From the IMG/VR virus record IMGVR_UViG_3300021185_001145, positions 1-64,000 of that record: 64,000 bases of DNA; one strand, 5' to 3'. The notes beneath the pieces are model-generated. The model had not been told where the DNA came from. It saw only the letters and a program-made list of their open reading frames with translations, and ran no database searches. Origin of the DNA: a virus. Position 1 is the stretch's first letter; every line of letters starts with the position of its first letter. The position numbers and the translations under genes were made by a program. Below are positions 9,409-12,891 of the stretch, piece after piece.

Positions 9409-10540
9409 TATTGTATCCCTTCAAAACGTTTTCATAAATGCTAGTTGCAACTGCTTTATACATCAATGGAGCAACTGCACGACCAAGACGCTCTACCTGA
9501 GCATCAAATTCACCTGTCAAAATAAAGTCTTCTGGGAAACCCATCAGACGTTTACACTCTTTAATAGTCAACTTACGATTTGCTTCTGGGTGAAATACAC
9601 CAGACATTCCTCGCTTCTGACCTTGCTGAGTTAGTGTTGGAGATGGCATATCTGGACAAGGGCGTATCATGTTGAAACAACTTGCCTTTGGATTCCATTC
9701 TCTAAACTGTGGGTCACTCGGTTTTGTATGTTTCTTTGGGTTGAACGGAAGAGGTGTGATAAACTTCTTCTGATATGAACCCTCAACAAAATCAAGTAAC
9801 ATCTGAACTTCTTCTTCATCATTCTCAATATCTGCTAGTGCTTCACGCATTGAAATATGCTTGTCGATTGTAGGGGCAGGAAAGATGTTATGCAAGTTTA
9901 AAAAAGACAAACCAACTTTATCTGCTACATCTTCACGCACACAAATAAAGATTGTACGTTCTCTTGCTTGAGGTACGCCATAGTTTGCACCATTCAAAAC
10001 TTCGTATGTAACATTGTAACCAATTGCCTCAAACGCATTGATAAACGCATTCAGTTTACTTTTTGCTTCACCAAATGTGATACCCTTGACGTTCTCTGCA
10101 ACAATTACTTTCGGTTGAATACCTTCTGCAATACGAATGAATTCATAGAACAAATCTTCGATTGCAACTTGCTTCTTTCCGTCAGAGTAACTTTTCTCTT
10201 TACCCCAACCTTTTTCTCGCTTACCAGCAACGGAGAAAGCAGAACAAGGGGGAGACCCATCAAGTATGTCGAGTTCGCCCTTTTGTACTCCTGCCATGCT
10301 AAGGAAGTCTTCTGCGCTGTATTTCTTAATGTCATCAACTAGAACTTTCGTATCGGGAAAGTTTGCAGTGTATGTTTCAACAGCGGCTTCTACAAACTCA
10401 TTAATCAGTAATATGTCTGAACCTGCTAGACGATACCCCAATGAAGAACCGCCACCACCAGCAAAACAACTGATAGTAGTGAACTTCTTTTGAGATGAAA
10501 GTGCTTTCACATCATCAACATTATATTTTTCATATCTCAT
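9401..10540 (-). CDS. C5-cytosine DNA methyltransferase with Asn-to-Arg change in motif X (candidate carboxymethyltransferase)
   Basis: 379 residues with the full M.HhaI-type motif series: motif I ISCFAGGGGSSLGYRLAG (23-40), catalytic motif IV SPPCSAFS (96-103, nucleophile C99), motif VI AENVKGI (148-154), motif VIII QARERTIFI (191-199), motif IX LTIKECKRLMGFPEDF (324-339) and motif X. Motif X reads ERLGRAVAPLM, with Arg354 (codon 9481-9479) where the family has Asn in GNAV/GNSV. The equivalent Asn in M.MpeI, when changed to Lys, permits carboxy-SAM use. It has its own promoter (10573-10601) flanked by direct repeats, and is coupled to the CmoA-like gene. No restriction endonuclease is adjacent, so it modifies phage DNA, probably for protection. 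Confidence 0.93.
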   Translation of the reverse strand: MRYEKYNVDDVKALSSQKKFTTISCFAGGGGSSLGYRLAGSDILLINEFVEAAVETYTANFPDTKVLVDDIKKYSAEDFLSMAGVQKGELDILDGSPPCSAFSVAGKREKGWGKEKSYSDGKKQVAIEDLFYEFIRIAEGIQPKVIVAENVKGITFGEAKSKLNAFINAFEAIGYNVTYEVLNGANYGVPQARERTIFICVREDVADKVGLSFLNLHNIFPAPTIDKHISMREALADIENDEEEVQMLLDFVEGSYQKKFITPLPFNPKKHTKPSDPQFREWNPKASCFNMIRPCPDMPSPTLTQQGQKRGMSGVFHPEANRKLTIKECKRLMGFPEDFILTGEFDAQVERLGRAVAPLMYKAVATSIYENVLKGYNNG

Positions 10541-10601: not shown

Positions 10602-11410
10602 GCAAAAAGTGAAGGAGTTGCAGAATAATTTACATAGTCTCTAACCAAGTCCATGGTTCTACCCCTATTGCGATAGTTCAATTCTTTGTCTTCAAGCAAC
10701 TGTTCGAAATACTCAGGAATACCAGCAACCAACTGTAGATTAGCATGTTTACGCTTTTTGGGTAGTTTTTCGAATTCTTCATATGCTTCGATAATTGGTG
10801 CTTTCTGATATGGCTTGTTAAAGAAATCGTGGTCGTACCGCATCATCCACTCTTTCACACTTTCACGCACATAAGGTGCGACTAAGTTCGCTTCTATCTC
10901 TTCACACAACTGTTCTTGCTGTAGAATGCCAGCAGGATTCTCTGCACCAAAGTAATCATTGCGAAACTTATCAAACAACTCTTTCGTATGCTTGAAGTGA
11001 ATGTTTGCACGTTTTGATACACCATACCAACCATCTGCGGCAACACCAGACAATACATGCTTCTCTTTAATATGAGGATAAACATAAAGAAACGGGAATG
11101 TACATTCTACATGTGTCTTCTTCTTACAGTCATAGTAACGCATCAGACGCAAGAAATCATCTTTCACATTATTGACTGGTACATCAATCTCATGGTGATT
11201 CCAACCATATATCTCAGCCGCTTCTTTCGCCGCTAAACTATCGACTGTTTCTTGACCATTCACATACATCGTATATGTGTGTACGTTTTTTCCTAAACGC
11301 ATTGCAGAAAATGCACAAGTCAAACTATCGACACCACCAGACATTAAAACAGCAACGTCTTTTCCAGGTGCTTCATCTTCTACTATTTTTGTTATTAAAT
11401 CATCAATCAT
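10598..11410 (-). CDS. Asparagine-synthetase-like ATP-dependent PP-loop protein
   Basis: 270 residues. PP-loop SGGVDS at 24-29 binds ATP pyrophosphate, and LSGVAADGWYG (120-130) corresponds to the LSGxGADExFGGY block of the C-terminal domain of AsnB. There is no N-terminal glutaminase domain, so it would need ammonia or another amine as nucleophile. AsnB-type domains adenylate a carboxylate and then form an amide. Its start overlaps the dCMP deaminase stop (ATGA), and the carboxy-SAM-linked methyltransferase pair follows directly. I infer a possible role amidating a carboxymethylated base. Other PP-loop roles such as tRNA or cofactor modification are not excluded. Confidence 0.75.
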   Translation of the reverse strand: MIDDLITKIVEDEAPGKDVAVLMSGGVDSLTCAFSAMRLGKNVHTYTMYVNGQETVDSLAAKEAAEIYGWNHHEIDVPVNNVKDDFLRLMRYYDCKKKTHVECTFPFLYVYPHIKEKHVLSGVAADGWYGVSKRANIHFKHTKELFDKFRNDYFGAENPAGILQQEQLCEEIEANLVAPYVRESVKEWMMRYDHDFFNKPYQKAPIIEAYEEFEKLPKKRKHANLQLVAGIPEYFEQLLEDKELNYRNRGRTMDLVRDYVNYSATPSLFA

Positions 11411-11841
11411 TTTATTTTACTTACTTGTACGCCACTACGCAATAAGAACTGAATGCCCTCATCTGTCTTGTAGTGGTCTCTATAATATACAGTATCAATA
11501 CCTGCTTGATATATCAACTTAGCACAGTCAATGCATGGTGATGCTGTGCAGAATAAAATTGCGTCATCTGCGCTATCGTTTCCTCTTGCAATCTTTGTAA
11601 TTGCATTTGCTTCTGCATGTAGCACTTCTTTTTTTGTGTTACCATCTTCATCTTCACATACATTAGACCAACCAGCAGGCATACCGTTGTATCCAATAGA
11701 AATAATTCTATCGTCTTTCACAACAACACAACCCACTTTAAGACGTTCCGCAGAAGATAACTGTGCGTACACTTCTGCGGCGTCCATATGCGCTTTAATG
11801 AATTTGCTCTTCACTATCTGCGCCCTCTTCTGCATCTTCAA
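11407..11841 (-). CDS. cd: dCMP deaminase
   Basis: Up to 144 residues. Zinc and catalytic motifs: HAEANAI (zinc His and proton-shuttle Glu) and PCIDC (two zinc cysteines), with KVGCVVVKDDRIISIGYNGMPAG typical of dCMP deaminases such as T4 Cd. It converts dCMP to dUMP for thymidylate synthesis. The longest frame starts with TTG (11841) and overlaps the upstream gene by 47 bases; ATG codons at 11835 and 11787 are alternatives, the last giving MDAAEVYAQLSSAERLKVG, which aligns with the T4 start. Coupled to the asparagine-synthetase-like gene. Confidence 0.9.
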   Translation of the reverse strand: MKMQKRAQIVKSKFIKAHMDAAEVYAQLSSAERLKVGCVVVKDDRIISIGYNGMPAGWSNVCEDEDGNTKKEVLHAEANAITKIARGNDSADDAILFCTASPCIDCAKLIYQAGIDTVYYRDHYKTDEGIQFLLRSGVQVSKIK

Positions 11842-12207: not shown

Positions 12208-12891
12208 TTAAATAAGTCTATGAATAGCGTACTGTTTACCAAGACGCTTGTTTCGTTTTTTCATTGCCATGTGTTTCTGTAAAGGTGAAACGAACTTCCA
12301 GAAAGGTTTACCTCTACTGAGTGCATAATTCTGAATGTAGTATCTACTCCATTCGTGTTGTACTCTTTCTCTATGCTCCTGATTAGAAACATCATAATAG
12401 ATAATGTCTGCAAATACTGGACGCTCAATATTCAAATACAACGCAGGATAACTTGCAGAAATCTCTCTACCTTTATGACCCTCATCAGATAACGCTTTAA
12501 TTTTAGAATTGATGAATGTCTCATACTCTGGTTCATCATCTGCACGTTGTTCAACAGGTTTTGGGTTTACAATGATAAAGAAATCATAATTGACACCCAC
12601 TTGTGATGCATGAATTGATGGACCGCTTCTGTTCTTTGACATTCTGAACAATACTTCAGCGAGTAAAGATGCTTCCATAACAAAAACAAAACCATCTTCC
12701 ATTTTCAATACAGGTGGTTTATCAAAAGGGTAATGAGCGCATGTTGTAAATGGCTTCATATTCTTTTTATCCAAATCAGTCTTAAAAGAAAAATACTTCA
12801 TAAGTTTCTCTACGTCAGGAACTTGTTGAACACTCTTCATCATTTCAGCGACTTCTTTACGCTCTTCTTTTACTTGTTCTACTTCACTCAT
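12208..12891 (-). CDS. Peptide-deformylase-like protein lacking catalytic residues
   Basis: 227 residues. The three deformylase motifs can be placed in order: GPSIHASQVGV (90-100) for GLAAPQVG, REISASYPALYLNIERP (142-158) for EGCLSxPGxxxxVxRP, and QHEWSRYYIQ (178-187) for QHExDHLxG. The zinc cysteine of EGCLS is absent and the second histidine of HExxH is replaced (HEWSR), so metal binding and deformylation are unlikely. Active deformylases occur in marine T4-like phages, so this appears to be a relative whose active site has been lost, perhaps kept for binding. Start overlaps gp46 stop (ATGA). Family assignment is by eye and moderately sure. Confidence 0.6.
   Translation of the reverse strand: MSEVEQVKEERKEVAEMMKSVQQVPDVEKLMKYFSFKTDLDKKNMKPFTTCAHYPFDKPPVLKMEDGFVFVMEASLLAEVLFRMSKNRSGPSIHASQVGVNYDFFIIVNPKPVEQRADDEPEYETFINSKIKALSDEGHKGREISASYPALYLNIERPVFADIIYYDVSNQEHRERVQHEWSRYYIQNYALSRGKPFWKFVSPLQKHMAMKKRNKRLGKQYAIHRLI

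Follow-up and report, generated by a model that had tools for sequence, protein, structure and literature searches.

A predicted CmoA-CmoX-CmoY DNA hypermodification operon with arginine at motif X in a T4-like phage

The window, a stretch of 64,000 nucleotides taken from a virus record of 83,590 bases (IMGVR_UViG_3300021185_001145), contains three adjacent genes that most probably make up a CmoA-CmoX-CmoY DNA hypermodification operon, in which 5-carboxymethylcytosine (5cxmC) would be made and then ligated to glycine or another amine. We place the probability of this reading at roughly 93%. The discovery of such a carboxymethylation system belongs to earlier work, in which Yang et al. (Nat Commun, 7 December 2025; PMC12783734) described CmoA, CmoX, and CmoY of Synechococcus phage S-B43. 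The window amounts to an independent reading of that pathway, and a search of the literature other than preprints returned no further paper on a CmoX enzyme. The sequence-only reading of the window had proposed a natural DNA carboxymethyltransferase, and this proposal is supported by the biochemistry and crystal structure of a close homologue and by an association between Arg at motif X and CmoA, both presented below. What is observed directly in the window and its relatives is the sequence and the fold, the placement and conservation of residues, the association of genes, and purifying selection.

In S-B43, CmoA makes carboxy-SAM (Cx-SAM), and CmoX, a homologue of the C5-methyltransferases, produces 5cxmC at GC motifs (PMC12783734). 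Wild-type S-B43 CmoX works with Cx-SAM only and refuses SAM, and in 8YF3, the structure of this enzyme crystallized with Cx-SAM, the cofactor carboxylate is contacted by Arg350, which takes the place of M.HhaI Asn304 (PMC12783734). CmoY, a homologue of asparagine synthetase, then joins glycine to the new carboxylate (PMC12783734). The window resembles S-B43 in having the same three genes side by side, with the same folds, the same cofactor-binding and catalytic residues, and Arg at the position of HhaI N304. It belongs to a different phage, however; the proteins are 49 to 54% identical, and the gene order is cmoY-cmoX-cmoA in the window versus cmoA-cmoY-cmoX in S-B43. An identity of about 50% leaves room for an altered target site or amine. 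The features of the window are listed in Table 1.

Table 1. Positions of the predicted operon, the Arg354 codon and nearby genes in the window.
Feature	Positions	Strand	Basis
cmoA, carboxy-SAM (Cx-SAM) synthase homologue, 226 aa	8728..9408	-	TIGR00740; similarity to S-B43 CmoA
cmoX, DNA cytosine C5-carboxymethyltransferase (predicted), 379 aa	9401..10540	-	PF00145; homology to S-B43 CmoX; 8YF3 fold
Arg354 codon CGT	9479..9481	-	Motif X; equivalent to S-B43 CmoX Arg350 and M.HhaI Asn304
cmoY, ATP-dependent (AMP-forming) amide ligase (predicted), 270 aa	10598..11410	-	PF00733, E 3e-15; homology to S-B43 CmoY
dCMP deaminase	11407..11841	-	PF00383, E 6.1e-23; phrog_174 dCMP deaminase, E 8.1e-54
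Peptide deformylase-like gene	12208..12891		PF01327, E 5.9e-11

The cmoX open reading frame encodes a full-length, intact homologue of C5 cytosine methyltransferases (PF00145, E = 4.2e-59). At the codon for residue 354 the plus strand reads ACG, giving CGT (Arg) on the minus strand, in the context L-G-R354-A-V-A-P. The sequence-only reading had stated that this Arg replaces the motif X Asn and had suggested alignment against M.HhaI as a check; position, residue, and column were all borne out. In a profile alignment of 38 window-type proteins and M.HhaI, the Arg354 column holds N304 of M.HhaI (QFGNSV), its Asn counterpart in M.HaeIII (IGNAV), and the Arg of the S-B43 enzyme (8YF3), while pairwise alignments put the GNAV of DNMT1 at the same column. 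The window enzyme has Arg where a SAM-using DNA (cytosine-5-)-methyltransferase is expected to have Asn. A comparable case is M.MpeI N374K, which, as cited in PMC12783734, is likewise a carboxymethyltransferase with a positive charge in place of the motif X Asn and the ability to use Cx-SAM. That enzyme is an engineered Lys variant of a CpG methyltransferase, whereas the Arg of the window enzyme occurs naturally and is conserved within a dedicated family.

The window CmoX also keeps the other residues assigned to cofactor binding and catalysis in 8YF3. F25, E47, F48, and D69 of its Cx-SAM pocket correspond to F26, E48, F49, and D70 in the window CmoX, and the catalytic motif is S96-P97-P98-C99, with Cys99 as the catalytic Cys. 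SPPC together with Arg at the S-B43 R350 position is the combination used in PMC12783734 to select 5,615 candidates for CmoX, some of them IMG/VR sequences, and the window enzyme has both. The nearest solved structure to its AlphaFold model (mean pLDDT 92.7) was 8YF3 (Z 46.3, rmsd 1.8 Å over 330 residues), followed by M.HaeIII (Z 32.4). M.MpeI (4DKJ; Z 29.3) matched the model in fold only, as the sequence match ended before motif X. Compared with four relatives at 83 to 94% identity, cmoX had a pN of 0.045 to 0.133 and a pS of 0.58 to 0.77, a dN/dS well below 1; cmoA and cmoY were likewise under purifying selection against close relatives.

Arg was conserved at motif X in 203 distinct related proteins, a set that includes some members retrieved via CmoA or CmoY, and it was encoded by all six Arg codons (AGA 87, CGT 51, CGC 27, CGA 16, AGG 14, and CGG 8). 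The use of all six codons points to selection on the residue itself, which bears out the earlier view that the Arg is not there by chance. We also counted CmoA neighbors among relatives retrieved by methyltransferase sequence only, with identical proteins counted once; the profile used for the broad scan stopped before motif X, 38 loci were found via the full window protein, and six came from annotated phages. CmoA was nearby in 91 of 121 Arg relatives (30 without) and in 0 of 26 relatives with Asn, Met, Leu, or Tyr at motif X. The corresponding Fisher test (P = 1.3e-13) ignores ancestry and overstates the association, since only about four switches of the Arg state occur in the 72-protein tree, two of them on well-supported branches. 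After correction for ancestry, the two independent contrasts on supported branches were too few for significance, and none ran in the opposite direction; each switch either agreed with the association or made no difference. A co-occurrence of Arg or Lys with cmoA-like neighbors, raised as a question in the sequence-only reading, was found for Arg, and no Lys occurred at this position among the relatives fetched by methyltransferase sequence. A single motif X residue is a good marker for the carboxymethylation pathway.

Many of the Arg-only loci end at contig ends. In Erwinia phage Y3, CmoA lies about 17 kb from the Arg CmoX on the same record, and in the viral contig G008 it also lies elsewhere on the record. 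In nine other viral contigs with Arg CmoX, CmoA was not found on the whole records; these have no end repeats and are perhaps fragments, one of them 76.9 kb long. Arg CmoX phages that lack a CmoA of their own could receive Cx-SAM from the host enzyme, by analogy with S-B43 CmoX, to which the CmoA of an E. coli host supplied it (PMC12783734).

These results bear on the simplest alternative, in which CmoX simply makes 5-methylcytosine like an ordinary methyltransferase, the change to Arg354 is neutral, and CmoA serves tRNA modification. The enzyme does have the overall fold and motifs of C5-methyltransferases, but the Arg is conserved through six codons and is associated with CmoA, the S-B43 enzyme, 52.5% identical to the window CmoX, refuses SAM, and S-B43 carries CmoA yet is reported without a CmoB homologue (PMC12783734). 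We regard this alternative as extremely improbable and rejected an ordinary methyltransferase with a neutral change because of the codon conservation and the CmoA association. The bacterial CmoA/CmoB pathway to cmo5U34 in tRNA does share a CmoA homologue and the donor Cx-SAM with the window, but its acceptor is tRNA, via CmoB, whereas in the window the acceptor would be DNA cytosine, via a C5-methyltransferase fold.

The gene for CmoA shares 8 bases with the end of cmoX. The protein matched TIGR00740 with an E-value of 8.7e-36, but its 123.8 bits fall under the curated cut-off of 193.3 for the equivalog. It is 53.5% identical over 228 aligned positions to the assayed S-B43 CmoA and 56.6% identical to the CmoA of phage S-CRM01; its solved relatives are 1im8, 4gek, and 4iwn. 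Based on the similarity to the assayed S-B43 protein, we filed it as a phage CmoA and not as the bacterial CmoA equivalog, and the earlier statement that a carboxy-SAM synthase homologue adjoins cmoX holds. In E. coli CmoA, Arg199 binds the carboxyl group of Cx-SAM (PMC3663124), whereas the window CmoA has Glu183 at this position. S-B43 CmoA likewise has Glu there, yet is active, so Arg199 is not defining for the phage branch. In 137 of 160 aligned phage CmoA proteins, the E. coli pair of Arg199 and Glu203, one helical turn apart, is swapped to Glu and Arg; the pair is E183 and R187 in the window and is swapped in the active S-B43 enzyme as well. The carboxylate-binding residue of phage CmoA may have shifted position.

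Directly upstream of cmoX lies cmoY, a gene absent from the finding of the sequence-only reading. CmoY is 49.4% identical to its S-B43 counterpart and places an asparagine-synthetase-like synthase domain next to cmoX. A phmmer search of solved structures gave no match for it; the likeness came from fold comparison, in which the AlphaFold model (pLDDT 92.9) matched asparagine and beta-lactam synthetases. CmoY shares with asparagine synthetase B and beta-lactam synthetase the ATP-dependent synthase domain and the SGGVDS loop, but it has no glutaminase domain, and its presumed substrate is a carboxyl on DNA.

CmoA and CmoX could act as proposed while CmoY uses an amine other than glycine, so that the final base differs from the glycine amide 5gcxmC. 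Consistent with this, CmoY is only about half identical to the S-B43 enzyme, it has His194 in place of a nearly invariant Trp (Trp in 41 of 44 aligned sequences, His in just two others), and other amines have been inferred for some other ligase clusters (PMC12783734). On the other hand, 54 of the 55 nearly invariant positions are common to the window CmoY and the glycine-using S-B43 enzyme, and the identity of the pair is well above the level of roughly 30% at which the published ligase network was drawn (PMC12783734), so the two probably belong to the same cluster. We consider a different amine unlikely, though worth keeping in mind, and glycine the probable substrate.

It is far less likely that 5cxmC is itself the final mark, with CmoY acting on something else. 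S-CRM01 (L003) has adjacent CmoA and CmoX and is not among the CmoY-matched records, as this alternative would allow; its mark may remain 5cxmC, or another ligase may act. However, cmoY lies directly upstream of cmoX both in the window and in S-B43, and native S-B43 phage DNA contained 5gcxmC, not 5cxmC (PMC12783734). Because S-B43 CmoY makes the glycine amide, 5cxmC is probably an intermediate in the window phage too.

We propose the following pathway, in which each chemical step, as well as glycine as the amine, is modeled on the assayed S-B43 homologues. CmoA would convert SAM and prephenate to Cx-SAM. CmoX would flip out the target cytosine, Cys99 would attack C6, and the carboxymethyl group of Cx-SAM would be transferred to C5, giving 5cxmC. 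Arg354 is predicted to hold the carboxylate of Cx-SAM and in this way to make CmoX select it over SAM. CmoY would then adenylate the carboxylate with ATP and couple it with an amine, of which glycine is the probable one. The modified cytosines probably shield the phage genome from host restriction, as suggested by the resistance to HhaI of DNA treated with S-B43 CmoX (PMC12783734). The sequence-only reading had named an R354N variant as an assay; in S-B43, R350N accepted neither cofactor and lost all activity with no switch to a methyltransferase (PMC12783734), so an inactive R354N enzyme would be no argument against a carboxymethyltransferase.

The target sequence of the window CmoX may be other than the GC motif of S-B43. 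The presumed target-recognition segment (residues 221 to 315) is 36% identical to that of S-B43 CmoX, compared with 63% for residues 1 to 220; an 8-residue insert that follows the catalytic motif in S-B43 is absent from the window enzyme; and in the tree the window CmoX groups with relatives on a well-supported branch that does not contain S-B43. Together these three differences make a non-GC target possible. In dinucleotide counts, GC was not depleted (observed/expected 1.02), and CG stood at 0.81. A bolder version, in which the window CmoX lies on a branch apart from S-B43 and has a non-GC target while CmoY adds a different amine, so that the final base would be one undescribed so far, seems to us improbable but not far-fetched. 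Because its branch and target-recognition region differ from those of the sole studied enzyme, the window CmoX is a useful second subject for studies of DNA site choice by carboxymethyltransferases, perhaps also for DNA labeling at non-GC sites.

By the gene set around the operon, the window is from a T4-like phage: nearby genes encode a clamp, a clamp loader, an SbcC/SbcD-like nuclease, a late sigma factor, and head and tail proteins. The dCMP deaminase gene lies upstream of cmoY, is transcribed in the same direction, and overlaps the cmoY start by 4 bases. The peptide deformylase-like gene adjoins the SbcC-like gene.

Several relatives had unusual arrangements. Two CmoX genes, adjacent and overlapping or nearly so and both with the motif X Arg, were present at 15 loci (L059, L060, L061, L062, L063, L064, L067, L069, L071, L073, L058, L022, L119, L120, and L122). 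A word search of the main text of PMC12783734 gave no apparent mention of such double genes. The paired enzymes may differ in target sequence. Some viral contigs, such as L063, carry one window-type and one S-B43-type CmoX side by side, which suggests that the two types are not redundant.

Other relatives depart from the usual residues or gene content. Methylophilales phage Melnitz-3 (L004:4010-5224), and also L287, has a CmoX-like methyltransferase with Leu at the Arg position (GLMVAP). The Melnitz-3 enzyme is 43% identical to the window CmoX; CmoA was not found in the 141 kb Melnitz-3 genome, and near the methyltransferase gene lie a gene with no assigned function and a RimK-like ATP-grasp gene. 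A methyltransferase branch comprising L032 to L042 and L306 mostly has Met in place of the motif X Asn (GMSVPP), with no CmoA in the loci. The contig L049 (G004; 76.9 kb, viral) has Arg CmoX and CmoY and no CmoA; either the contig is incomplete or Cx-SAM comes from a host CmoA. In Erwinia phage vB_EamM_Y3 (L006:4980-7109), an intein-like insert interrupts the CmoX catalytic motif between SPP and C, and it is probably also present in the kin of Y3, whose CmoX matches come as two pieces. Bacterial genome records, among them those of Streptomyces, Spirosoma, Hymenobacter, and a Scytonema plasmid, likewise contain Arg CmoX together with CmoA; these records include L291, L292, L296, L298, L299, L304, L305, and L289, along with more contigs and plasmids.
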